NCBI RefSeq assembly: GCF_013342985.1
Contig: NZ_CP054490.1
Coordinates: forward strand, 62,001-126,000
Length of the DNA: 64,000 nt
Reading direction: 5' to 3'
Source of the DNA: Candidatus Ruthia endofausta
GTDB taxonomy: Bacteria > Pseudomonadota > Gammaproteobacteria > PS1 > Pseudothioglobaceae
Under the pieces are notes generated by a model, which saw nothing but the letters and a program-made list of their open reading frames with translations, was not told the origin of the DNA and searched no databases. The translations under genes were made by a program, and so were the position numbers. Positions 19,085 through 63,710 of this stretch are shown piece after piece (position 1 is the stretch's first letter; every line of letters begins with the position of its first letter).

Positions 19085-19825
19085 TTATTTTTTATCTTGT
19101 TTTAAAAATTTCATAATTTGTACGTAAGCCATCACGCTCATAATGGGAAATAGTGAGGCAAAGGCGATTAAACCAAAACCATCAATAAGTGCAGAGCGTC
19201 CATCAATTGTACTCGCAAGTCCAAGTCCAAGGGCTGCAACCAGTGGCACGGTTACGGTAGATGTGGTGACACCGCCAGAATCATAGGCAAGTGCAATAAT
19301 ATTTTTAGGTGCAAAATAGGTTTGTATCAGTACAACAGCGTAGCCAGTAATAATAAAGTAATGTAGTGGCAATCCAGCCACAATGCGAAAACTCCCTATG
19401 GCAATACCCACAGCCACACCAATGGCAACTGCAATTCGTAAAGGCCATACTTTGATAAAACCACCAGAGACTTGGTTGGCCTTAATGGCAACCGCTAATA
19501 AGGATGGCTCAGCAATGGTTGTGGCAAAACCAATGCTAGCTGCAAAAATATAAACCCAATAATAATCACCCCAGCCAAGTCTGTCACTGCCGATAAAATT
19601 ACTTGATGTAAGCTGGTTTGCCATTAATTTTCCTAGAGGGAATAGTGCTTTTTCTAAGCCAACAATAAATAAAGTGAGTCCAACCCACACCAAAATAAAC
19701 CCGATAATAATCTTCTTTAAATGTGGTATTTTTTGTCTAAGAATGATAATTTGAAAACCAAACAACACCACCGCAATAGGGGTTACATCCCAAAACATGC
19801 TAATAAGATTATCCACTAGGCTCAT
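19085..19825 (-). CDS. DUF1538 membrane protein, second copy
   Basis: 246 residues, strongly hydrophobic, with about seven membrane segments. It carries the DUF1538 signature [20 protein letters not shown] near residues 175-195, then [20 protein letters not shown], and an N-terminal repeat element [18 protein letters not shown]. Family function is unknown; polar residues inside membrane segments (YDSGG, TTS, E in IAEPS) look like those of ion or anion transporters. It overlaps the upstream copy by 4 bases (ATGA) and is about 40-45 per cent similar by eye. Many genomes carry the two halves as a single protein of about 500 residues. Confidence 0.8.
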
Positions 19826-20553
19826 AGCAATATACCAAATAACATCACCGCAATAATGGGCAATAGTGAGGCAATGGCAATCATGCCAAAGCCATCGGTT
19901 AACGGGTTTCTGCCACTAATTGAACTTGCTAAGCCAACGCCAAGTGCAGTGAGTAGCGGTACAGTAATAGTACTGGTAGTCACACCACCCGAGTCATAAG
20001 CGATGCCAATGATAAAGTCTGGCGCAAAAAAAGTCGTAACAATTACTAGGAGGTAACCACCAATAATTAAGTATTGTATTGGCCAACCTTTTAAAATTCT
20101 GAGCACGCCAATCACCACAGCTAGACCCACAGAGATACCCACAGTAAAGCGTAATATTTGCGCATAACTATTGAGTTCTGTTTGTGTATTGATAATGCCA
20201 CCCAGTTGAGCGACTTTAGCTGCTTCATTAACCACTGCTATAAGAGCAGGTTCTGCTACTGTGGTGCCAAATCCTAAGGCAAAGGCAAATAAAAGCAACC
20301 AAAAAATTGACCCTTTTTTGACAAAACTGTAAGCCAATATTTCACCAATAGGAAACAGCCCTAGTTTGAGTCCGTAGACGAATAAAGTTAAACCCAATAA
20401 AACAAACTCTGTTCCAATTATAATGTCCATTAAGTTGGGAATGCTTTGTTGAAGCACAACAATTTGGAAAAAAGCAATTACACCCATAATAGGGGCTAAA
20501 CCTTTAGCACTATCAATTAGATTGTTAATAAACTGTCGAGCAGTTTTTTTCAT
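19822..20553 (-). CDS. DUF1538 membrane protein, first copy
   Basis: 243 residues with the same architecture as its downstream partner. It has [18 protein letters not shown] in the first half and [20 protein letters not shown] plus [20 protein letters not shown] in the second. About seven hydrophobic segments are visible. It is the first gene of the five-gene minus-strand unit and diverges from pabC across a 116-base gap. An AAGG sequence precedes the ATG at spacing 5. A paired inner-membrane complex made of the two copies is an inference from the 4-base overlap and sequence likeness. Confidence 0.8.
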
Positions 20554-20669: not shown

Positions 20670-21497
20670 ATGAATAGCGCCTTATTAATTAACGGGAAAA
20701 AACAAACCAAACTCAATGCGCTTAATCGTCTTGTTCAATTTGGTGATGGTTTGTTTGAAACTTGTTTAATTGAAGATACTAGATTGTTATTTTGGTCCAA
20801 GCATTTTTCAAGGCTACAAAAAGGCTGTGATAAGTTAAAAATTCATCAAGTGAGTGAAGCTATTTGGCTTAAAGAAATTGCTAAAGCATTTGCCATTTCC
20901 AAATTAGACCGGGCGGTGGTTAAAATCATACTTTCTCGTGGTGAGAGTACAAGAGGCTATGGCTATGAGAAAAACATCAAGCCAACTCGTATTGTGGTTG
21001 TTTCTCCTATGCCTGATTTACCTTGGCAATATGAGTTGGATGTGTGTTCTAGTGGCTACGTAAGTAATCAATTATTGTCTGAGATTAAGCATTGTAATCG
21101 CTTGGAGCAAATTCTTGCAAGGTCAGAATTGCAAGCGCAAGAGTGTATTATGTTGGATGAAAATGCTCAGGTCATTTCAGTGACTCAAGGTAATATTTTT
21201 GCCATTCGCAAGCAAGTGATTCTCACGCCTAGTCTGACCAATTGTGGTATTGAAGGCACCCGAAGATTCGTGGTTTTTGATTTGGCACAAGCATTAGGTC
21301 TGCAACTTGAAACTTGTTCTTTGTCATTGACTGAACTACTTGAGGCAGATGAAGTATTTATTACCAATAGTGTGATGGGTATCAAGCCTGTGGCTAAAAT
21401 TAATCAGCAACTATTTAGCCATCATCAAGTCACAAATCGATTAATTAGCGCCTTTGTGTGCTCTAAAAATAACCACTCATCTATCAGTCTTGCTTAA
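20670..21497 (+). CDS. pabC: Aminodeoxychorismate lyase
   Basis: PLP fold-type IV enzyme that makes 4-aminobenzoate for folate. 275 residues, normal length. The N-terminal pattern is NRLVQFGDGLFETCLIED. The catalytic lysine falls in RAVVKIILSRGES, followed by RGYGYEKN, IKHCNRLEQILARSE and ITQGN-like VTQGNIFAI. The C-terminal EADEVFITNSVMGIKPV is a strong family match. It overlaps mltG, as pabC-yceG-tmk-holB is a conserved gammaproteobacterial order that is kept here. The enzyme could in principle be a branched-chain or D-amino acid aminotransferase relative, but the gene order favours PabC. Confidence 0.9.
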   Translation: MNSALLINGKKQTKLNALNRLVQFGDGLFETCLIEDTRLLFWSKHFSRLQKGCDKLKIHQVSEAIWLKEIAKAFAISKLDRAVVKIILSRGESTRGYGYEKNIKPTRIVVVSPMPDLPWQYELDVCSSGYVSNQLLSEIKHCNRLEQILARSELQAQECIMLDENAQVISVTQGNIFAIRKQVILTPSLTNCGIEGTRRFVVFDLAQALGLQLETCSLSLTELLEADEVFITNSVMGIKPVAKINQQLFSHHQVTNRLISAFVCSKNNHSSISLA

Positions 21498-22467
21498 ATC
21501 AAACCTCTTTTATTTTAAATTTATTTTTGTGTTTGTGGCGATTTTTTTGCTATTTTGGATATATTGGGCAAATGATATCAAGGTAAATAACTCAAGTGTG
21601 TACCAAATACCTCAAGGGGCTAGCCTTTATTCAACTGCAAATAATCTAGAGTATCTGGGTTATATTAACTCTAGTATTTTTATGCGGCTACTCGCCAAAT
21701 CGCTCAATCTTGAGTCAAAAATTAAATCAGGTTATTATGATATTAATGCGGATATGAGCGTGATTAATTTGTTGAATCATTTTACATCTGCAAAAGTGGC
21801 GACCAGAAGTATCACCTTAATTGAGGGTAATACTATTGATGACTATTATCAAAAGTTGGTTAATATGAAAGCGTTAAAATCTAGTAAAACTTTAACAGAA
21901 ATCATGATTGAAATTAAGCAAAACCATCCGTATGATGGCTATTTTTGGCCAGATACTTATCAAATTAATTATGGTAGTAGTGTGCTTAGTGTATTTAAAA
22001 GAGCTCATCAGATGATGCGTCAAAAACTTGAACTTGCTTGGCGTAATAGGGCTCACACTCTACCCTTGAAAAACGCTGAACAAGCGTTAGTGCTTGCCTC
22101 TTTAATTGAGAAAGAAACAGCTAATGCACAAGAAAAATCCAAAATTGCAGGCGTGTTCATTCGTCGCTTGCAAAAAGGTATGCGCTTGCAAACTGATCCA
22201 AGTGTGGTTTATGCGCTGGGTGAACATTATCAAGCACCACTCAAAAAACGAGATTTAGAATTTGACACTCCTTACAATACCTATAGAAATAAAGGCTTAC
22301 CACCAGGGCCAATCTCCTCAGTAGGTGCAGATTCGTTATATGCAGCTATGCATCCACACATGGGTAGTGCACTTTATTTTGTTGCTAAAAAGGACGGTAC
22401 TCATGCTTTTGCAAATACCTATCAGCAGCATAAAGACAATATCAACAAGTACCTAAAAAATCAATAA
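21490..22467 (+). CDS. mltG: Endolytic murein transglycosylase MltG (YceG-like)
   Basis: Inner-membrane enzyme that cuts nascent glycan strands and sets their length. The membrane helix (FKFIFVFVAIFLLFWIYWA) is near the N-terminus. A LysM-like region follows (YQIPQGASLYSTANNLEYLG), then ITLIEGNTIDDYY and WPDTYQINYG. The catalytic Glu is in ASLIEKETANAQEKSKIAG, followed by LQTDPSVVYALG and GLPPGPISSVGADSL. No ATG is available. The TTG at 21490 overlaps pabC by 8 bases and places the helix properly; a TTG at 21454 is also in frame. It is intact while mltD is decayed. Confidence 0.9.
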   Translation: MLKSNLFYFKFIFVFVAIFLLFWIYWANDIKVNNSSVYQIPQGASLYSTANNLEYLGYINSSIFMRLLAKSLNLESKIKSGYYDINADMSVINLLNHFTSAKVATRSITLIEGNTIDDYYQKLVNMKALKSSKTLTEIMIEIKQNHPYDGYFWPDTYQINYGSSVLSVFKRAHQMMRQKLELAWRNRAHTLPLKNAEQALVLASLIEKETANAQEKSKIAGVFIRRLQKGMRLQTDPSVVYALGEHYQAPLKKRDLEFDTPYNTYRNKGLPPGPISSVGADSLYAAMHPHMGSALYFVAKKDGTHAFANTYQQHKDNINKYLKNQ

Positions 22468-22489: not shown

Positions 22490-24118
22490 ATGCAAAGAGG
22501 AAAATTTATCACCATTGATGGCGTTGAGGGTGCTGGGAAAAGTACACAAATTGATTTTATTTGTGACTATTTAGCCAAAAAAAACATCAATGTTATTTTA
22601 ACGCGTGAACCGGGTGGTACTGAGTTGGGTGAAAAAATTAGGACATTATTACTAAGCACTGACACCCAATCAATGCATGGTGATACTGAGTTATTATTAA
22701 TGTTTGCTGCTAGGAATGAGCATATTAGGACTAAAATTATGCCAACACTTGAGAAAGGTGATTGGGTATTAAGCGATCGTTTTACGGATGCTTCATACGC
22801 CTACCAAGGCGGCGGCAGGGGTTTGAGTATTGAACGTATTACTCAGTTGGAAAAATGGGTGTTGCAAGATTTTACCCCTGACGTGACTTTACTATTAGAT
22901 GTGCCAGTTGCACTAGGCATGTCACGGGTTGAATCTAGAAGTTGTAAGGACAGAATTGAACTTGAAACAAATGACTTTTTTAATCGTGTGAGAGATGGTT
23001 ATATTGAAAGGTCTAAGCAATTTCCTGAACGAATTAAGCTCATTGACGCTTCAAAAACACTTAAGCAGACAACCCAACAAATCAAAACCATTTTACAAAC
23101 ATTAGTGAATCTTCCTTGGCACGAAAATGCGTGGTCTAAACTACAAAAAATGATTGATCAAGATCGTCTGCCTCATGCATTATTGATTACGGGTGCTGAA
23201 AAAATTGGCAAATTTGAACTCATGCAACAATTAGTGGGCGTGTTGTTAAAAGATGACGTTATTATTAGAAAAGACAATATTAGAGAGGATTTGGATTACC
23301 CTGTATTAATCAGGCGTTCAAATTATCCTAATATGATTTATTGTCGCGCAGGAGAGATGGTTGAAAAAAGCAAAAACAGGTCTAAGGATATCCGTATTGA
23401 CCAAGTACGTGTTTTTTGTGATGCTTTGAATAAAACTGCTGATCAATTACAAATTGGGGTTGTTTTTTATGGCGACCAAATGAACATGAACGCCGCCAAT
23501 GGTTTGTTAAAAACCCTTGAAGAGCCTAAAAAGAATACGCTCATTATTATTTTAGCACACCATATTGAAAATTTGCCAGCCACGATTGTATCAAGATGTC
23601 AAAATATACACATTGCACCGGCGTATGGTCGGCAAACTTGCCAGTGGCTAATTGAGCATATTGGTAAAACTCAAAATGCAGATTTTGATATTCCGCAGTT
23701 ATTAGAAAATACACATGGTGTTCCATTTAAGGTGTTGTCTGAGCTGTCTGATGGCAGTTTTATCTATTATCAAAATTATCAAAACCAGTTGCTTAATATT
23801 GCCATTAATCCATTAATGGTGACACAGATTAAAAATTTTGAAGATGATGAGTTGGTGGTTTTAAATTGTTTACAAAATATTATTATTGAAGGAATTAGGT
23901 TAAAAACCATTCATCAAGAAGGTGCGCTGATTGAGCTTAATCAAGTCATCAAGGCAGTAAAATTTGAGTTTTTATTTAAACTACTTGATGATATTTATCA
24001 TGCTATTGAATTGTCAAAAACCACCGTTAATATTAAGTTATTATTGGATAATATTTTAATTGTATGGTCGCATATTATTCATTTAAAGCAATATCCACAA
24101 ATTACCCAAAACGCATAA
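22490..24118 (+). CDS. tmk-holB: Fused thymidylate kinase and DNA polymerase III delta' subunit
   Basis: A single 542-residue open frame. Residues 1-205 are dTMP kinase: the P-loop is TIDGVEGAGKSTQID, then LTREPGGTELGEKIR, SDRFTDASYAYQGGGRG and LLLDVP. Residues 206-542 are DNA polymerase III delta': LPWHENAWSKLQKMI, LPHALLITGAEKIGKFEL (degenerate P-loop), ANGLLKTLEEPKKNTLIII and LPATIVSRCQNIHI, the conserved SRC motif. The four zinc-binding cysteines usually found after the P-loop of delta' are absent. tmk and holB are neighbours in most gammaproteobacteria, so the fusion would need only loss of the tmk stop. No internal start with a strong ribosome-binding site was seen at the junction. Confidence 0.9.
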   Translation: MQRGKFITIDGVEGAGKSTQIDFICDYLAKKNINVILTREPGGTELGEKIRTLLLSTDTQSMHGDTELLLMFAARNEHIRTKIMPTLEKGDWVLSDRFTDASYAYQGGGRGLSIERITQLEKWVLQDFTPDVTLLLDVPVALGMSRVESRSCKDRIELETNDFFNRVRDGYIERSKQFPERIKLIDASKTLKQTTQQIKTILQTLVNLPWHENAWSKLQKMIDQDRLPHALLITGAEKIGKFELMQQLVGVLLKDDVIIRKDNIREDLDYPVLIRRSNYPNMIYCRAGEMVEKSKNRSKDIRIDQVRVFCDALNKTADQLQIGVVFYGDQMNMNAANGLLKTLEEPKKNTLIIILAHHIENLPATIVSRCQNIHIAPAYGRQTCQWLIEHIGKTQNADFDIPQLLENTHGVPFKVLSELSDGSFIYYQNYQNQLLNIAINPLMVTQIKNFEDDELVVLNCLQNIIIEGIRLKTIHQEGALIELNQVIKAVKFEFLFKLLDDIYHAIELSKTTVNIKLLLDNILIVWSHIIHLKQYPQITQNA

Positions 24119-24147: not shown

Positions 24148-25434
24148 ATGAACCAATCAGAAACTTTATTTGCACAAGCAAAAACTGTCATTTCTGGTGG
24201 GGTGAACTCACCAGTTAGAGCATTTAATGGTGTAGGTGGCAGCCCTATTTTTTTTACCCGTGGCGAGGGTGCTTATCTTTTTGATGTAGATGGTAAAAAG
24301 TATATTGACTATGTTGCCTCTTGGGGTCCAATGATTTTAGGTCATGCCAATCAAGCGGTTATTGACGCTGTTAAAACCGCCTTGGGAAACGGCCTTGGTT
24401 TTGGTGCGCCTACTCAAATTGAAACAATATTGGCAGAAAAAGTATGCGAGTTAATGCCTTCAATTGAGCTACTTCGTATGGTCAGTTCAGGCACAGAAGC
24501 AACCATGAGTGCCATTCGTTTGGCGCGCGGTCATACGAGCAGAGACAAAATTATCAAATTTGAAGGCTGTTATCATGGCCATTCTGACTCATTACTGGTT
24601 AAAGCAGGTTCTGGTGCTTTAACATTGGGCGTGCCCACCTCACCTGGCGTGCCTGAAGATTTTGCAAAGTACACACTGACTTTAGAATACAACAACATTG
24701 ACCAAATACGCGAAGTGCTAAGTGAAGTGGGCGCTGAAGTAGCTTGTGTTATTGTTGAACCTGTGGCAGGCAATATGAACTGCATTCCACCCATTGATGG
24801 TTTTTTGCAAGGATTGCGCGAATTGTGTGATGATCATGGGATTATTTTAATTTTTGATGAAGTAATGACAGGCTTTCGTGCCGCACTTGGTGGTGCACAA
24901 GCACTTTACAATGTAAGACCTGATTTAACAACATTGGGCAAGGTGATTGGTGGTGGCTTACCAGTGGGCGCATTTGGTGGCAAGCGTGACATTATGCAAT
25001 CGATTGCACCACTAGGATCTGTTTATCAAGCAGGAACGCTTTCGGGCAATCCAATATCAATGTCAGCAGGCTTGGCAATGTTAAATACATTATCAAAAGA
25101 TGAGGGTTTTTATACCACCTTAAATGCCAAAGTTCAGAAGCTAACAAAGGGTATTTTAGCCAAGGCCAAGGAAAACAATATCGGTATGATTACTACCGTT
25201 GTGGGCGGTATGTTTGGTCTGTTTTTTACCGACTCTCAATCAGTGACTAACTTTAAAGGGGCTTCACAATGTAATGTTGAATTGTTTAAAAAATTCTACC
25301 ACCTAATGTTGGCAGAGGGCGTGTATATGGCGCCTTCTGCTTATGAAGCAGATTTTGTTTCCAGTGCTCATAGCGATATAGATATTCAAAATACCATTGA
25401 TGCGGCTGGACGTGCATTTGCAAAGTTGGCATAA
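24148..25434 (+). CDS. hemL: Glutamate-1-semialdehyde 2,1-aminomutase
   Basis: PLP enzyme that makes 5-aminolevulinate from glutamate-1-semialdehyde in the C5 tetrapyrrole pathway. 428 residues, full length. Motifs are [100 protein letters not shown] with the PLP lysine, and [16 protein letters not shown]. An AGGAGA ribosome-binding site lies 8 bases before the ATG. It begins 29 bases after the tmk-holB fusion. Confidence 0.97.
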
Positions 25435-27419: not shown

Positions 27420-28138
27420 ATGATTAAACTTTTAGTAATGTGGATATTGATAGTTTTGCCTACGTTTGCATTAGAGGCGCCTGAGTTGACCCTATTCGAG
27501 TCGTTACAGGAGCAAAAATAAGGTAATAAATTTTTACAAATTATTTTGGGATAGCAGATTCTGTGGTGGCTGATATTGAAACCCAAGTTTATTTAAAAAA
27601 ATTAGGTTATGAATTGTCTGCTCATAGTGAAAACCCATCTGAGTATCTTGATTTTTTTATGCTGAATGATGATGATATTAATGCTTTTGCAGGTCCATAT
27701 GGTTATATTGGTATGTTGCTCAGTTCTGATTCTGGATCTGAGCTTGTAGGTGTTCTTTCTCATGAAATATCGCACGTTACTCAAAATCATCTAACTCGTT
27801 TTAGTGAGAAGACAGGAAAATTCTGGCTATACTATGCAGCTAATAATAAAATCACTAAGGGTATTAGTATATTAAAGCGTTATTTAAAACTTACAATATA
27901 GGTACTTATCATTCTCATAAGTTACTTTCATATTTATTATGTAAATGCTGATAAGTTAGATTGCGTACATATTCACAACGCCAAAGTATTGGTATTGCAA
28001 GGTAGGTTAAGCGAAGGTGTTACTTGTTATCAGTGAGCAGAATCTGTCACTCAGTCGCGAGACTTGTTTGATGTTTTAACAGTCAGAATTAATCGCTTAA
28101 AGTGGTTGACAGATTTGTACCAGAATTTACCTAATTAG
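27420..28138 (+). pseudogene. M48-family periplasmic protease (BepA/YfgC-like), decayed
   Basis: Starts with a signal peptide (MIKLLVMWILIVLPTFALEA) and a stop after 34 codons. It resumes in another frame as ADSVVADIETQVYLKKLGYE, then INAFAGPYGYIGMLLSSDS and VGVLSHEISHVTQNHLTRF, with the HExxH zinc motif. It breaks again near 27850. A C-terminal TPR-like tail, AKVLVLQGRLSEGVTCYQ, runs to a stop at 28136-28138 across further frame changes. BepA assists outer-membrane protein assembly and degrades stalled LptD. It is now non-functional, and its tail overlaps the 3' end of rpiA. Confidence 0.75.
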
Positions 28139-28840: not shown

Positions 28841-29368
28841 ATGAAAGAAATCATTCTTGCCAGCAATAATCAAGGTAAATTCAGAGAATTTAACGTCATG
28901 TTAAGCGGTATTTACCAAGTTGTATCTATGTAAGATATGCAGGTTGAAGAAGTGCCAGAAACAGGGCTAACCTTTGTTGAAAATGCACTGATTAAAGCAC
29001 GAAATACCAGTGAATAATCTGGATTACCAGTACTGGCTGATGACTCAGGTATTGTGATAGATGTACTGGGCGAGTCCTGGTATTTATTCTGCACGTTATG
29101 TGAATTGTCATGGGGATGATGAGGCGAATACTCAAAAAGTATTAACCGATATGAAGGACGTGCCAGAGGGTGAGAGAACTGAACGATTTTGGTGCGCGAT
29201 TGTTCTTGTTGAGTGTAAAAATGATCCAACACCCATTATTATTCAACGTGGTTGGGAAGGTGAAAAAATGGGTGATAATGGCTTTGATTATGACCCAATT
29301 TTTATTGGTATTTCTGGCAAATGCTCAGTCTAGTATTAGCGATGAGCCATCGCATTGCACATCTTATG
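28841..29368 (+). pseudogene. rdgB: XTP/dITP pyrophosphatase (RdgB/HAM1), decayed
   Basis: Begins MKEIILASNNQGKFREFNVM, the strictly conserved RdgB start, then a TAG after VVSM, DMQVEEVPETGLTFVENALI, a TAA after ARNTSE, and GLPVLADDSGIVIDVL. A frameshift follows, then PGIYSARYVNCHGDDEANTQ and NGFDYDPIFIG. A last shift leads to MSHRIAHL, which corresponds to the conserved SHRxxAL near the C-terminus. Two nonsense codons and at least two frameshifts rule out activity. RdgB removes deaminated purine nucleotides from the pool. Confidence 0.85.
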
Positions 29369-55715: not shown

Positions 55716-58700
55716 TTGCAAACTCAAGCACAAGTTCTTTCCCAAACGCTAAGTAAAGAAGTTGTTGTTGTCACCAAAGGTGAGCAACACATTAGGGTCG
55801 TGCCAAATCGTGCTTATGAGCTAAGCATCGAAGATGGCAAAGACTTTGACCTAATTGCTAAAAAAGTAGGCGATGATTTGGAAGTGTTGTTGCCTAATGA
55901 TACCACTGTTGTGTTTGATGGATATTTTGAAGTGTGTGCAAGTGATTTGTCTTGTTTAGTATCTTTACCAAGCGAAGGCGGTATTTATTATGTTGTTGAG
56001 GGTAATTTTGTCACGCTTGCTGATAGCTCTCAAATCATTCATTTTTATGGCGATGAATCTGCATTATCAGCCATCGCTACTTATCAATCTTCCTTGTTTT
56101 CTGAAAGTTTTAGCGAAGTTTATCTTATTGGTTTTTTTTCATCTTTAAGTATAGGTAGCGGTGAAATATTAGGTGGCTCAGCAGGTGTAGATGGCGGCGA
56201 CATTTCTTCTTTGGGAGATGTTGTCCTTCAGATAGTCGCTAGTGCAGGTGAGTTTATTGAAAATAATGGTGGACTTGTTAAATTATACAAATACAATCCT
56301 GCCACTGGCAAGTTAAACTTTTTCACGGACGTGGATCTGAACAATTCAGGCGCGCAAGATTTCTCTATTGGTAGTTATGAAGGTATTATTGTTGCCAAAT
56401 TAATTGATACTAATGGCGACAACGCTGATTTTAGAGACGAAGCAACAGGCGTGGATACCGACATATCTGCTATATTATTAGCAGTTATTGACACCTCTAA
56501 AGGTGGCAATATTGACGTTAGTATTACACCATTAACAACCATAGCTGCACTTAGAATGGATTTAACCACGTCTGGTGAATTACCTACAGGGGTAATGCTG
56601 GATGCATCCACTATTAATAACACCAATAAAGGCGTGGCTAAGGCCTTTGGTTTAGGCAATGATGCTGATGTAGTCACCACTAGAGTACAAACAGTAACAA
56701 CACAAGATGGCGAAACCTCTACTTCCAATGCCTATGGTAATGCTTTAGCAGCATTATCTGGTGTAGACTCAGAGAAAAACTCAGGTGATATGGCTGCAAC
56801 CATTACGCAGTTTGAAGAAGAATTAACAGGCACGGGCGCTGATTTAAAACTAACCAGAAATGGGCAAGAAGATTTGCTTGCTGGTGCCTCTAAAGCCGAA
56901 ACAAGCAATAGCAAGATTGATGTTGCTTCAGGATTAGCCGCCGCCATTAAAAGTACTGATGCTATTGACAGTTTTAGTGGCATCGAGATTATGTTAGGTT
57001 TTGAAGATACAGGCACTAGTGCAACAGATGATATTGTTCAGGCTATCGATGCTGATGATAACCCGACTGTTGGCACTGTTGCTACTGGAAATATAAGAAT
57101 TAATGTTGTTGGTGTTGGTTCAGATTGGTTTTATTCAACTAATGATGGTGTGGGTTGGACTCAAGGCGTTACAGATGCTGAGCTTGGTGTTGGCTTTAAT
57201 TTAGCTGAAAACGCAAATGCCTACAACAAAGAACACATTATGGTTCGACCTACTGGCAGCCTTTCTGGTAAAGATGGTACTGAAGTGATACTAGGTACTG
57301 GAACAATTCTTGTTGATGGAGAAGCGCCAAATGGAGCCACTTCAACAGCATTAAGTTCGTCTACTGCTTCAGTGATAGATGTAGCAATAGCAACCGGCAA
57401 TACTTGGCAGTATTCTACTGAAAATGGGGCCGATGGCACTTGGAAAGTAGGTGTAGGTACTAGCTTCTCTTTGGCTGCTAATGTCGTCCATGCAGCAAAT
57501 CAAATACAAGTTAAAGAAATAGATGCTGCAGGCAATGAGTCTACAATACTTAAAAATGCTGTAGAAATTACAGGGTCAAGTCTAGCATTAAACCTTAACA
57601 GTGATACAGGTAATGATATATTTGATGGTAAAACAAAAGATGCCACTATTAATGTAATTACTGGCTCTAACGTTACTTGGGAGTTCACAATTAATGGCGG
57701 CACAGATTGGAATCCAGGTGATACAGGCAATGGTAGTTTTGAATTATTAATTCCAGGACAAGAAACAGGTGATATTTTACAAAGCAATATCAAGGTTAAA
57801 GTAGCAGGTCAAGATGACTCAAATGCCGTAACTCTTTCTCACTACGATGTAGCATCAATAGATGTATCAACTCTTACTATCGATGCCACATTAACACTTG
57901 CATCTGATGGCGACACAGGCACTGCTGGTGATAAAATTACCGGTAATAAAGTAATTAATGTAACTGGCGGCGGCATTTGGGAGTACTCTACTGATAGTGG
58001 TGGAAATTGGAAAAAAGGCTCAGGCTCATCATTTGAACTATCAAGTCAATCTTATGTGCAAGGTCAAGTACAGGTTAAAAAAGTAGACGAGTATGATAAT
58101 GATTCTCAATCCACTCTATTAAATGCAATAACTATTGACTATATATCCCCTAGTGTCATCTTATTCACCTCAAGCACAGTTGGTGGTTCTCATGGTGTAG
58201 GTAGTAAGATTAATATCACTGCTACAGTGAGTGAAGAAATTACTTCAGGCGCAATCACAGTGACACTAAATACAGGCGAAACAGTAACTTTAATAGTGTC
58301 AGCAGATGACAAAACCCTTTTGACAGGAGACTACACAGTAAATACTAACGACGCCACGACAGACTTAAAAGTAGCCAGTTTTTCTATCAGTTCAATCATT
58401 GTTGACATTGCAGGCAATGAAATGACTGGCACGAGAGTGCCTGATAAAAATATCTCAGACAACATCGAAGCTAGCGATAGTGCCATTCTCATAGACGGCG
58501 TTGCACCAACTATTACTTCTTTTATTTCAACAACAGCAGACAATTCTTACAAAGCAGGCAGTGAAATTAACATTACTGCCACAGTAAGTGAGTCAATTAA
58601 AGCAGGCGGTAAAATTACAGTAACACTAAATTCAGGTGGCGCCGCAGTATTAACTATTGCTGCAGGCGGCGCTAGCTTAACAGGTACTTATACTATCGGC

Positions 58701-61700
58701 TCATCTGATAACACTGCAGACCTTAGCGTTGTTAGTTTTGTAATCGGAACGGAAGCAGACGCAGTAATTGATGTTACAGGCAATGCAATGACTAGTAACA
58801 CATTACCTTCTGGTAGTAACATTTCAGATATAAGCGCTATCGTTGTTGACACAACTGCACCAACAGCAACACTCAGTAGTAATATAGCGCCAGTAGTAAA
58901 CTTAATCATGACATTTGATGCAGACGTTACAAAGATTGACGGCAAAGAAATCAAGATTCATAAAGTTGGTGAGGCGACAGCTGTCCACACTACTATTATT
59001 GGCAATGATGTTACTGGAACTGTGAGCATTACTGACAACAGAGTAACAATTGATCCAATTGTTGATTTAGAGCCTAATACAGATTATTATGTAACAATAG
59101 AAACTGGCACTTTTAAAGACATAGCAGGTAATGAATATGCTGGTATTACTGACGCAGCAGATTGGGCATTCACCGCAGCCGCTTTAACAACATCTGCCAT
59201 ATGGTCTAATAGCTCAACTGATGTATCATCAAATGGTATTAATATTGCTGAATTTGGTGCTTTATCTATTAAAGGTATCTTGTCCAATATAGGTGATGCA
59301 GCTACTGGTGTTACTATAGATAGGATAGTTTTTAAAGCGGCAAGTGGAAGTGACAATGATATTACTTACTCTGGCGGTATGCCAACTCTAAGTGGTGATA
59401 CCAACGAAAGTACTTGGGAGTTAATGCACGCTAATATTCTTACTTTATCTTTAGTAGATGGAGAAACCTATACAATTGAGGTGAGTTTAACTGCAAGTGG
59501 TGGTATTACAGGTAGTGGTGGTAGTAGTACACAAGTTTTAATTGATCAAACAGCTCCGACAATACCAACTATTAATACAATAGCTAGAGATGATGTAATC
59601 AACTTTTCTGAGAAAAATTCAGCTATTACAGGCACAAGCGAAGCTAATAGCACTATAACACTATCTATCGGCGGCAACACTAGAATTGCTGCAGTTACAG
59701 GCATAACTTGGAGCTATACACTAACAGACGCAGACATCACTGCCATGGGTCAAGGTTCAGAAAGCATCACTGCTACAGCAACTGATATTAATAATATAGC
59801 CACTTCATCAGCTAAATCTATTACTGTTGCAACAGTAGCCCCAACCATTACTAGTGTGACAGATGACCATGATCAGTCTGGACAAGAAGTCACATCTGGG
59901 ATAGTAATTTACACCGTGACTTTCAGTCACGGTGTAAATTCGAGTTTCACCTCAAACGATGTCGTTTTAGTAGATAATTCAGGAGAGGTAATAGATACCA
60001 TGGATCGGGTCATAGGCATCCTTACTGAGCTCTCAGGGAGTTCTGGTACTCAATGGACTGTTTCAGTCACCCCGCCTTCTGGCTTTAACGCTATTGATGT
60101 TACTGCGGTACGTCTAAAAATAAAAAAAACAGGCTTGACAGATATCTATGGCAATGACCCTTTTGACATCAATCATACTCAAGATATTGCTGATGCCCAA
60201 AGTTTTGACACTCAGCCACCTTCTGACCCAATCCTCACCCTAAATACAGATACAGGTACAAGCGCTACTGATGGCATTACTAATAATGGCGTGATGGATG
60301 TTACTAATCTTGCTGTTGATCTTGCTTCATGGCAATATAGTATTGATGGTGGTGTGAACTGGGCAACTGTTTCAGACAGTGTTGTGACTAGCTTTACTTT
60401 AGCAGCGGGCACTTATGGTGTTAATCTTATTCGAGTTAGACAAACGGACAATGCAGGGCAAACCAGTAACATTACTAAATACATTACTGATATTACGGTT
60501 GATACTTCCATTGACACGCCAACGCTTGCTCCTGCAGATGGTGGCACAATGTCTAGCACAGACAGCTTTGTCTTAACCTTTGCAGAGAATATGAATGCAG
60601 TGATAGGTAAGAGCATTGTTATTAAATGCTTTAGTGATGACACTGTGATAGAAGCCATTACAGCAGATAGTGGCATACAAGTTAGTATTAATGCTGCAGG
60701 TGTGGTCACCATTAACCCAACCGATATTAAGTTAGTTGCAGGAACAAGTTACTATGTTGAAATAGATGCAGGTGCTTTTAAAGACACTGCAGGTAATGAA
60801 TCCACTGCCATTACTGGCAGCACTGCTTGGAATGTTACTGTGAATGAAATGGATGTTATCATTGCAGTTGCTACAGACAACAAGGTTAACGCGATAGAGA
60901 ATGCCACTGACATTACCATTGCAGTAACCATTAGTAGTACATCTGCTATCTTAGGTGCTTTATTGCTTGGTGACTTTAGTGTGACAGCGACTAAGGTTTC
61001 TGATAGTAGTAATGTAGTATTTACAGGCGCTACTTATGATAATGCAACAGGCATATGGACAGCCACCATCAGTGATGGTGGACTTATCAATGGGGATAGC
61101 TACACCATACAATCCGATGTCACAGGTAGTGTTCTTAACATAAACGCATCAAGCACACAAACAGTCAGGGTTGATACTGACGTACCAATCCTGAGCTTAA
61201 CAGGCAACATTGCAATAGACAATGTCATTAACATTGCTGAGTCTGCCAGTGGCTTTAGTATCACAGGCACTTCTACAGGCTTAGCAATAGGCAGAGAGAT
61301 GAGTATTGTACTTAACACTCAAACTTATACAACAACAGTGACAGACGTTAGTGGCAGTTGGGATGTTAACATTCCTTCAACAGACGCAAGCGCGCTAATG
61401 GAAGGTACAACTTATGCAGTCACTGTTAATGCCAGTGATGACTATGGCAACCCTGCCACACAACTATCACAAGATATCACTGTAGATAAGACAGCACCTG
61501 TTAGCACTGTGGTGATTGATGAAGTCATCACTGACTTGCCAACCATCACAGGACAGACTAGCGCCAGTATAGCTGTAGAGATTAAACTAGATACAGACAA
61601 TGACAATAGCTATGATGATGTCACTTATACAGTTACTAGTGATACCACTGGTAACTGGACGCTAGACTTAACCAGTGTTGCCTCACTTATTTCAGGCATT

Positions 61701-63710
61701 GCATCTACCTTTGCAAGTATTGATACTCAACTGGGTGTTCAAGTAAGCATCACCGATGCTGCGGGCAATATGACAACCAGAACAGGAATAGCAACCAAGC
61801 AAGACTCTTCTTACTCTATCTCTGACTCAAGAGTGATTGAAGGCATAACAGGGAGAAAGACCATGACTTTTATGGTGACTAGAGAGGGGGGGTTGTCAGC
61901 AGCAGGGACGGTTGATTATGCAGTAGACACGACATTAAGTTTGGCTAAGTCAGGTGGTACGGCTGATGGTATTGATGATGACTATTCAGTAGACGGAGAT
62001 GGGGATGTAAGTGGCACAGTTACTTTTGCAGCAGGTGAAAGTTTTAAAGAGATTACCTTTATAGTGAATGGTGATTACTATAAAGAAGTGAATCAGAACA
62101 TCATTGTTGATTTAACCAATCCAACAGAAGGTGCAATTTCTAAGGCAACGGGTATTGGTGAGATTAGTGAGGTGGATGTTTCAGCGATGAGCGGTGCGTT
62201 TAGTCTAAAAGATATAAATGCAGACTTAGCAAGTAATGCAATTAGGGTTAGACGTTCAAGTGATGATGCTGAGTTGGATATTGGATTTGATAAGTATGGT
62301 AATTTGGATACACAAGCATTGCTAAATTTTGTTGGCACAGGCACAGGAGACACAGGTTATGTCACGACTTGGTATGATCAGTCGGCTAGAGGGGGAAACC
62401 TAACACAAACTATTAATAGCAAACAAGGGGTGATTATAGATGATGGACAACTTGTTACCACATCAGATGGGGCAAGGACTATCAGCTTTAATCAAGGATT
62501 GAATGGCAGTAATAATGACTGGATGAGCATGTCCGGAACCGGGGGAAGTGCTACTAATATAGAGATGTATTTTACTTATCAGTACGCCGCTACTTCTAAT
62601 GGAACTCTGGTAAATATAGGAACTGCTGTAAGCACTGGTCGTATATCAGTACATTCTCCGTGGAGCACTGGAATAACTTATTGGGATGCCGGCTCGGCAG
62701 TCGGTGACGCTCGTTTATCTGCTGCTAACATCCAAACAGTAAATCAAGTGCAACAATTGGTGTTTACAGCGAACTATAATCATAGTGGTGCTGGAACCCT
62801 TACTCAAAATAAAGTAGATGCAAAACAAGCTATTTTTGTTGATGGGGAAGTTAAAGGGGCTGATGACAATCTATTGGATTCAGCTTTAGTTCTTGGTTTT
62901 ACTTGGTATCTTGCAACTTTTGGATATGGAGGTACAGGGTTTCAATCGGGGATGATTAGTGAATTTTTGTTCTATACCAATAATTCCAACACCACTGTAA
63001 CAGACCCAACAGCTTTCCTAGGTACCGCTGTCAACAACACCTTTACCTACGCAGGGGAGACTACATTAGCAAGCATTGATGGTAAAGTTGGTTATGACAC
63101 AGTGATTCTATCAGGCGCCTCAAGCAACTTAGACACAACCACAGTAGCGTTAAACTCTATTGAATTAATCCACATGCGAAATGGCGAAACTAACACACTC
63201 ACCATCAACAATACACAACTAGACACAAACGTTCCTGTCCTAAGTGTTCTGATGGACACCGGTGATAGTATTGTCTATGAAGGTACTATACTTAACTACA
63301 GTGCCACCCAAGAAGTTGTGAACTTTGGCACAACAGGCAATGACACCATTAATATGTCTTCCTTCAATGAAACAGTTTATGGCAGAGGCGGCAACGACAC
63401 CTTTGTCTATAAATCATGGAGTGATGCCGCAGCAAGCAGCAGTTCTGATAGCATTGCTGACTTTACCATTGGCGACACTGGTGCTGGCAATGACACTCTT
63501 AACCTTAAAGACTTACTCAGCAGTTATAATTCTACAAACTTAACTGACTTTATCAACTTAACTGAAAGTGGCGGTAACACGATCATTAATGTTGGTAAGA
63601 ATGGTGCTGTTGGTGGCGCATTTGCTGAAGATATTAGCATTACTTTAACAGGCGTGACTGGGGCTAATTTGCTTACCATGATTACTGATGGTAACTTGGT
63701 GCTTGAGTAG
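55716..63710 (+). CDS. Giant BapA/RTX-type surface adhesin with Ig-like repeats
   Basis: 2664 residues, intact. Parts in order: BapA-prefix-like N-terminus about 1-120 (EVVVVTKGEQHIRVVPNRAY, then DLEVLLPNDTTVVFDGYFE); a conserved adhesin domain about 145-405 (GAIIVAKL-like GIIVAKLIDTNGDNADFRDE, ITPLTTIAALR); an Ig-like repeat region about 420-2030 with paired modules SKINITATVSEEITSGAITV and SEINITATVSESIKAGGKIT, and Big_5-like modules ending YYVTIETGTFKDIAGNEYAG and YYVEIDAGAFKDTAGNESTA. A Calx-beta-like module follows at about 2033-2150, then a jelly-roll-like module about 2152-2435 (AIRVRRSSDDAELDIGFDKY, YVTTWYDQSARGG), and an RTX-like end about 2535-2664 (GNDTINMSSFNETVYGRGGN, SDSIADFTIGD) of the type I secretion target class. 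It is predicted to be exported by a type I system and anchored or released at the cell surface. No secretion genes lie nearby. The start (TTG, or ATA 14 codons upstream) is uncertain. Confidence 0.85.
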   Translation: MQTQAQVLSQTLSKEVVVVTKGEQHIRVVPNRAYELSIEDGKDFDLIAKKVGDDLEVLLPNDTTVVFDGYFEVCASDLSCLVSLPSEGGIYYVVEGNFVTLADSSQIIHFYGDESALSAIATYQSSLFSESFSEVYLIGFFSSLSIGSGEILGGSAGVDGGDISSLGDVVLQIVASAGEFIENNGGLVKLYKYNPATGKLNFFTDVDLNNSGAQDFSIGSYEGIIVAKLIDTNGDNADFRDEATGVDTDISAILLAVIDTSKGGNIDVSITPLTTIAALRMDLTTSGELPTGVMLDASTINNTNKGVAKAFGLGNDADVVTTRVQTVTTQDGETSTSNAYGNALAALSGVDSEKNSGDMAATITQFEEELTGTGADLKLTRNGQEDLLAGASKAETSNSKIDVASGLAAAIKSTDAIDSFSGIEIMLGFEDTGTSATDDIVQAIDADDNPTVGTVATGNIRINVVGVGSDWFYSTNDGVGWTQGVTDAELGVGFNLAENANAYNKEHIMVRPTGSLSGKDGTEVILGTGTILVDGEAPNGATSTALSSSTASVIDVAIATGNTWQYSTENGADGTWKVGVGTSFSLAANVVHAANQIQVKEIDAAGNESTILKNAVEITGSSLALNLNSDTGNDIFDGKTKDATINVITGSNVTWEFTINGGTDWNPGDTGNGSFELLIPGQETGDILQSNIKVKVAGQDDSNAVTLSHYDVASIDVSTLTIDATLTLASDGDTGTAGDKITGNKVINVTGGGIWEYSTDSGGNWKKGSGSSFELSSQSYVQGQVQVKKVDEYDNDSQSTLLNAITIDYISPSVILFTSSTVGGSHGVGSKINITATVSEEITSGAITVTLNTGETVTLIVSADDKTLLTGDYTVNTNDATTDLKVASFSISSIIVDIAGNEMTGTRVPDKNISDNIEASDSAILIDGVAPTITSFISTTADNSYKAGSEINITATVSESIKAGGKITVTLNSGGAAVLTIAAGGASLTGTYTIGSSDNTADLSVVSFVIGTEADAVIDVTGNAMTSNTLPSGSNISDISAIVVDTTAPTATLSSNIAPVVNLIMTFDADVTKIDGKEIKIHKVGEATAVHTTIIGNDVTGTVSITDNRVTIDPIVDLEPNTDYYVTIETGTFKDIAGNEYAGITDAADWAFTAAALTTSAIWSNSSTDVSSNGINIAEFGALSIKGILSNIGDAATGVTIDRIVFKAASGSDNDITYSGGMPTLSGDTNESTWELMHANILTLSLVDGETYTIEVSLTASGGITGSGGSSTQVLIDQTAPTIPTINTIARDDVINFSEKNSAITGTSEANSTITLSIGGNTRIAAVTGITWSYTLTDADITAMGQGSESITATATDINNIATSSAKSITVATVAPTITSVTDDHDQSGQEVTSGIVIYTVTFSHGVNSSFTSNDVVLVDNSGEVIDTMDRVIGILTELSGSSGTQWTVSVTPPSGFNAIDVTAVRLKIKKTGLTDIYGNDPFDINHTQDIADAQSFDTQPPSDPILTLNTDTGTSATDGITNNGVMDVTNLAVDLASWQYSIDGGVNWATVSDSVVTSFTLAAGTYGVNLIRVRQTDNAGQTSNITKYITDITVDTSIDTPTLAPADGGTMSSTDSFVLTFAENMNAVIGKSIVIKCFSDDTVIEAITADSGIQVSINAAGVVTINPTDIKLVAGTSYYVEIDAGAFKDTAGNESTAITGSTAWNVTVNEMDVIIAVATDNKVNAIENATDITIAVTISSTSAILGALLLGDFSVTATKVSDSSNVVFTGATYDNATGIWTATISDGGLINGDSYTIQSDVTGSVLNINASSTQTVRVDTDVPILSLTGNIAIDNVINIAESASGFSITGTSTGLAIGREMSIVLNTQTYTTTVTDVSGSWDVNIPSTDASALMEGTTYAVTVNASDDYGNPATQLSQDITVDKTAPVSTVVIDEVITDLPTITGQTSASIAVEIKLDTDNDNSYDDVTYTVTSDTTGNWTLDLTSVASLISGIASTFASIDTQLGVQVSITDAAGNMTTRTGIATKQDSSYSISDSRVIEGITGRKTMTFMVTREGGLSAAGTVDYAVDTTLSLAKSGGTADGIDDDYSVDGDGDVSGTVTFAAGESFKEITFIVNGDYYKEVNQNIIVDLTNPTEGAISKATGIGEISEVDVSAMSGAFSLKDINADLASNAIRVRRSSDDAELDIGFDKYGNLDTQALLNFVGTGTGDTGYVTTWYDQSARGGNLTQTINSKQGVIIDDGQLVTTSDGARTISFNQGLNGSNNDWMSMSGTGGSATNIEMYFTYQYAATSNGTLVNIGTAVSTGRISVHSPWSTGITYWDAGSAVGDARLSAANIQTVNQVQQLVFTANYNHSGAGTLTQNKVDAKQAIFVDGEVKGADDNLLDSALVLGFTWYLATFGYGGTGFQSGMISEFLFYTNNSNTTVTDPTAFLGTAVNNTFTYAGETTLASIDGKVGYDTVILSGASSNLDTTTVALNSIELIHMRNGETNTLTINNTQLDTNVPVLSVLMDTGDSIVYEGTILNYSATQEVVNFGTTGNDTINMSSFNETVYGRGGNDTFVYKSWSDAAASSSSDSIADFTIGDTGAGNDTLNLKDLLSSYNSTNLTDFINLTESGGNTIINVGKNGAVGGAFAEDISITLTGVTGANLLTMITDGNLVLE
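58141..58862 (+). repeat. Two tandem Ig-like modules within the adhesin
   Basis: Two consecutive coding units of about 360 bases each encode the same pattern: PS/PTI-x-x-F-x-S-T, then K/EINITATVSE-x-I, ITVTLN-x-G, LTG-x-YT, a hydrophobic VASFSIS/VVSFVIG strand, and DxxGNxMT ending in SDxxAIxxDG/T. They are diverged at the DNA level, so this is an old duplication and not a recent slippage product. Confidence 0.7.
59906..59940. repeat. Perfect 16-base inverted repeat inside the adhesin gene
   Basis: The arms at 59906-59921 and 59925-59940 are exact reverse complements (AATTTACACCGTGACT and AGTCACGGTGTAAATT) with a three-base TTC loop. The repeat is wholly within coding sequence (residues about 1397-1409, IYTVTFSHGVNS). 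No poly-T follows, so it is not a normal terminator. It would form a very stable hairpin in mRNA or single-stranded DNA. Confidence 0.9.

Follow-up and report, generated by a model that had tools for sequence, protein, structure and literature searches.

A single extra base in a stop/start overlap very likely joins the thymidylate kinase and DNA polymerase III delta' genes of Candidatus Ruthia endofausta in one frame

In Escherichia coli K-12, the genes for thymidylate kinase (tmk) and the delta' subunit of DNA polymerase III (holB) are two separate genes, b1098 and b1099, which stand in the operon order pabC-mltG-tmk-holB and overlap by 4 bases; a strong Shine-Dalgarno-like site (-9.5 kcal/mol) belongs to E. 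coli holB. An overlapping pair coding for the same two proteins in the same order occurs in Pseudomonas putida, and this pair is described as predicted to be translationally coupled (PMC10653934). A cluster named 'Thymidylate kinase' is likewise classed under translational coupling in another study (PMC3711429), with stop and start close together in only 3% of its members, a share so low that this cluster probably does not represent the tmk-holB arrangement. No fusion of the two genes is described in the titles or abstract openings listed by literature searches on tmk and holB, which we do not take as a claim of absence from print.

We analysed the corresponding locus in a stretch of 64,000 nucleotides from the Candidatus Ruthia endofausta genome (the window) and compared it with relatives assigned by their genome records to Ca. 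Ruthia, Ca. Ruthturnera and Ca. Thioglobus, names that point to a clam symbiont. The proteins and the operon order are those of E. coli, whereas one extra base in the window merges the tmk and holB frames. The following features are referred to below.

20670 to 21497, plus strand: pabC-like gene, first in the conserved operon order, recognised from its position and its alignment with the corresponding site of relatives
21454 to 22467, plus strand: mltG-like gene upstream of tmk, in the same order as in E. coli K-12
22490 to 24118, plus strand: fused tmk-holB frame, 542 amino acids plus stop, from the open reading frame, Pfam, NCBIfam and the family survey
22490 to 23104, plus strand: tmk half, a complete dTMP kinase (residues 1-205), from alignment to the Tmk of the relative G002, Pfam and NCBIfam
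23105 to 23105, plus strand: extra G within the ancestral ATGA stop/start overlap, from comparison with family loci
23105 to 24118, plus strand: holB half including the stop codon, a complete delta' from residue 206, from alignment to G002 HolB and Pfam
24148 to 25434, plus strand: downstream gene with its own Shine-Dalgarno-like site, which we take from its sequence to be hemL-like

The sequence-only reading of this DNA had proposed one open frame for both proteins with no stop at their natural boundary, and this is borne out. Indeed, the open reading frame listing and its translation give 542 codons from ATG to TAA with no internal stop, and Pfam recognises both halves: Thymidylate_kin (PF02223) over residues 9-198 (E 1.4e-48, 165.5 bits, profile positions 1-185 of 185) and DNA_pol3_delta2 (PF13177) over residues 211-377 (E 1.3e-27, 97.2 bits against a cut-off of 27). 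The NCBIfam dTMP kinase model TIGR00041 covers residues 1-198 with 181.1 bits, its cut-off being 83.25, and is matched along its whole length (1-196 of 196). By these profiles the tmk half is a full-length dTMP kinase, with predicted activity and a predicted homodimeric state; it carries the stretch GVEGAGKST, presumably a P-loop-like motif. Compared with known bacterial dTMP kinases (TIGR00041, PF02223; E. coli 4tmk), it differs in that its C-terminus continues into delta'. The delta' half resembles E. coli delta' (1a5t, 8val) in sequence and is full length against the relatives, and differs from it in carrying Tmk on its N-terminus. In a scan that covered the window protein only, the NCBIfam delta' models stayed below their cut-offs, the best being NF004310 over residues 208-529 (139.6 bits against 280) and TIGR00678 reaching 112.6 bits against 180.6. 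Alignment to G002 sets the boundary precisely: G002 Tmk residues 1-205 align to 22490-23104 (96%) and G002 HolB residues 1-337 to 23105-24115 (94%), so that Tmk passes into HolB at residues 205/206 without a linker.

A search for a second tmk or holB at E<=0.001 returned the fused protein as the sole match in its own single contig of 1,188,809 bases, of which the window covers 62001-126000, and both functions therefore seem to depend on the fused frame. No PDB chain matched across both halves in its best stretch in a sequence search. Structure prediction of the fusion from an alignment of HolB rows only (A3) yielded a model too poor to draw on (mean pLDDT 44.3, pTM 0.32). Two other alignments were dropped: in A1, separate HolB rows had been placed over the Tmk half; in A2, the Tmk rows shared 21-22% identity with the window and every listed conserved column fell in the HolB half, which we read as a wrong register.

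The junction itself was compared across the family. Among 29 family loci examined, 2 do not contain tmk, and in all 27 that hold the junction the tmk stop lies in an ATGA whose A is the first base of holB; the same is true of the 11/11 other genomes of the genus. The usual sequence of the genus at this place is TTATGAA, and the window reads TTAGTGAA, with one extra G at 23105. Since the frames of tmk and holB differ by one position, a single added base is enough to merge them: the window protein continues from Leu205 through Val206 (GTG, formerly the stop and the HolB methionine) to Asn207. Relative to G002, no Tmk residue is lost and HolB is changed only in its start methionine. The comparison thus shows tmk and holB as ancestrally separate neighbours that share an ATGA overlap, and the tmk stop is lost through a one-base insertion, not a substitution. 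A tolerated loss of the stop, one of the possibilities raised from the sequence alone, comes close to this evidence as regards tolerance, given the ATGA intact in 11/11 genus genomes, and needs correction as regards the mode of the loss.

A search of 83 family genomes, own included, gave a match at E<=1e-60 in 79; among the matches listed, a single frame covering both genes was found in this genome only (1/83). A shared fusion, for which a survey of relatives had been proposed, was thus not recovered; the genes are separate in the other genomes of the genus and at all 27 family junctions, so that separate genes in relatives, which had been named as part of a possible refutation, are indeed the case. 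The remaining listed HolB rows of the family lie in open frames of at most 430 codons, except that of G096 (L078), whose HolB-HemL frame of 806 codons is false, a run of 100 N at 1901-2000 lying between holB and hemL. Beyond the family, 320 of 369 genomes drawn from the class matched at E<=1e-40, with matches listed to about E 4e-61, and 19 were inspected: in 12 a single match covered both genes, and in 7 the frames around tmk were long. No fusion was found in these 19/19 genomes, Tmk and HolB being in separate frames or parted by a stop. From the phylum, 4 of 398 genomes (own included) matched at E<=1e-66, and the 2 further spanning matches were both without fusion, with a stop or a frame change in between. 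The E-value limits of the class and phylum draws are strict, so that a diverged fusion could be missed there. MltG-Tmk frames seen in L071, L073, L076 and L085 were rejected as stop-free stretches of G+C-rich DNA with MltG in another frame.

An extra base present in a single genome could be an error of sequencing or assembly, or a minor variant within the host, the living symbiont having two overlapping genes. Coding frames were compared between this genome and G002 over 244 kb. A match was found for 191 of 219 G002 open reading frames of at least 100 codons. Of these, 181 keep their full length in a single frame (180,840 bp), against 1 with a broken frame and 9 that are partial, so other frame differences do exist. 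Among the partial ones, two lie at the borders of the compared region, one is a piece of a gene broken in G002 but complete in this genome, and one other has an aligned part without any gap. Small indels are present in the frame-broken frame and the remaining inspected partial ones, mostly frames of 100-165 codons that are maybe not all genes; this inspection covered the frame-broken case and six of the seven partial ones away from the edges, a frame of 2,548 codons being left out. In the reverse comparison, 6/192 frames of this genome are broken in G002, tmk-holB among them. A frame of 2,664 codons at 55716-63710, with a TTG start as listed, has this 2,548-codon frame as its G002 counterpart and matches it partially, in one stretch.

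Within the window, comparison with G002 gave only 7 non-triplet indels in 48,254 aligned positions inside frames of at least 100 codons, a set that takes in spurious frames. Three of the 7 lie where genes meet or end (19827, 23105 and 54706), two fall in the gene that is broken in G002, and the others form one compensating pair. Outside such frames, 8,762 aligned positions hold 96 indels, 83 of them non-triplet and 32 being single-base additions in the window. Changes of one base are thus frequent where the frame is irrelevant and rare where it matters, and the stop/start overlap is a place where the frame matters little. The site of the insertion leaves both proteins whole, as expected for a mutation filtered by selection, and the extra G lies outside any homopolymer. 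On these coding-frame statistics an error appears unlikely; taken with the within-host variant, we consider this explanation improbable, and the one-genome fusion very likely genuine. Seven other 4-base overlaps occur among the 18 close pairs of frames of at least 100 codons in the window, maybe not all of them genes. At another 4-base overlap, at 19822-19827 between two minus-strand genes, the window and G002 also differ by one base, and the overlap in G002 is 29 bases long.

Some further frame differences were observed around the locus. Near the end of pabC (about 21454-21500), the window and G002 are one base longer than G011, G010, G003 and G007; in G011 and G010 the pabC frame continues into that of mltG, a gene which in these two is shortened or partly deleted. 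Downstream, at 27420-28135 and 28841-29327, two genes of 440 and about 200 codons that several relatives have intact are divided between frames in the window. The 440-codon gene is also shortened, and both look like decaying genes.

When 24 starts selected by us in the window (mltG not included) were scored for pairing with the 16S tail, the holB start region gave the weakest pairing, and it is about as poor in 4/5 relatives. E. coli holB, with its strong site, thus differs from this lineage, which has none. The overlap together with the missing Shine-Dalgarno site leads us to infer that tmk and holB form a translationally coupled pair in the relatives, with re-initiation at holB. Programmed frameshifting was set aside, since the relatives' holB start overlaps the tmk stop, which would fit re-initiation. 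The poor pairing suggests that HolB was formerly produced by ribosomes re-initiating after tmk, and that most of it is now part of the fusion product. The DNA frame could nevertheless be fused with HolB still largely separate, through cleavage of the fusion or through the GTG at 23105: the former ATG has become a usable bacterial start in exactly the right place, and tmk and several other genes of the window also start without a Shine-Dalgarno site. However, this GTG has the weakest pairing of all the starts tested, and loss of the stop leaves no adjacent termination from which ribosomes could re-initiate. A largely separate HolB is, in our estimate, improbable.

The two halves were also compared for selection. 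Against six relatives, the window gives dN/dS values of 0.065-0.153 for tmk and 0.083-0.170 for holB; among the listed relatives themselves the values are 0.105-0.183 and 0.076-0.145, the highest holB value of the window (0.170, against G002) lying slightly above the range of the relatives. By these substitution ratios, purifying selection is shown on both halves. Since dN/dS averages the time before and after the insertion, and for the G002 comparison mostly the time before it, the values do not show selection on the fused state. Against G011, dS is 0.33 in tmk and 0.15 in holB (22490-24115), a contrast that may reflect recombination with a breakpoint near the junction.

These values bear on the idea, put forward from the sequence alone, that the fusion ties nucleotide supply physically to the replisome, and on the reading of it as an adaptation that couples the phosphorylation of dTMP with the clamp loader at the fork. 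The adjacency of tmk and holB in E. coli too, and a single event that leaves both proteins whole, would be compatible with an adaptation. Yet the fusion is confined to 1/83 family genomes and is absent from the class and phylum rows inspected for a spanning match or a long frame, it has no linker, and its dN/dS is near the values of the relatives. Moreover, the product of thymidylate kinase is dTDP, on which a further kinase must act to make it usable. We found no support for an evolved link and regard an adaptive one as very improbable; as far as can be told, the fusion is tolerated rather than selected.

The delta' half was also said to keep the SRC motif and to have lost the four cysteines of the zinc module. 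The motif is indeed retained (S368, R369 and C370) and is invariant in the eight rows of the HolB alignment A3. As for the cysteines, E. coli delta' has C50, C59, C62 and C65, which we take to be its zinc-binding residues, and their counterparts are absent from the window protein, as from its genus. The absence is correct, and what it was connected with has to be revised: the four cysteines are missing in 23/29 family loci, including 11/11 of the genus, and are kept as C-x4-C-x2-C-x2-C in 6 (L019, L020, L023, L026, L027 and L028). All four are carried by 17/18 class loci that gave a HolB row, these loci being picked for long or spanning frames and not at random; a nineteenth, L071, gave no HolB row. 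One locus of another family, L068, is also without the delta' zinc cysteines. DnaX of the same genome retains its own four, as C-x8-C-x2-C-x2-C. Since the cysteines are absent throughout the genus and from most family loci with an ordinary separate holB, their loss is older than the fusion; judged from this distribution, the two are independent and of different age. Being common to relatives with separate genes, the loss of the zinc cysteines lends no support to a link between nucleotide supply and the replisome.

Collectively, the explanation that we hold to be probable is a recent, tolerated fusion of coupled neighbours by a one-base insertion, without new function. Before the insertion, ribosomes ending tmk would have restarted at the overlapping ATG to make HolB, by translational coupling and with no Shine-Dalgarno site. 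A single extra G in the overlap would then have brought both genes into one frame at the cost of the tmk stop and the holB start methionine, so that ribosomes now presumably read on to yield one Tmk-delta' protein of 542 residues, whose two halves could fold and work independently. The overlap may be one of the few sites of the operon at which both proteins survive an indel of one base, so that the insertion could pass purifying selection and become fixed by drift. Ruthia and Vesicomyosocius are described as undergoing ongoing genome reduction and as being without recA and some repair genes (PMC3202245); fixation by drift would be in keeping with this.

On present evidence, the tmk-holB fusion offers no new mechanism by which replication would be controlled. 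Thymidylate kinase is a homodimer, and each kinase dimer would hence carry two delta' subunits; that the fused protein is the sole product and that such dimers link two clamp loaders, carry dTMP kinase to the fork and alter replication of the symbiont seems to us a distant prospect. If the fusion is the only product, the clamp loader tolerates a domain of 205 residues at the N-terminus of delta'. The locus illustrates cleanly how two probably coupled genes can be fused, with harm to neither, by a one-base indel in their stop/start overlap, and it identifies such overlaps as sites where gene fusion can readily begin.
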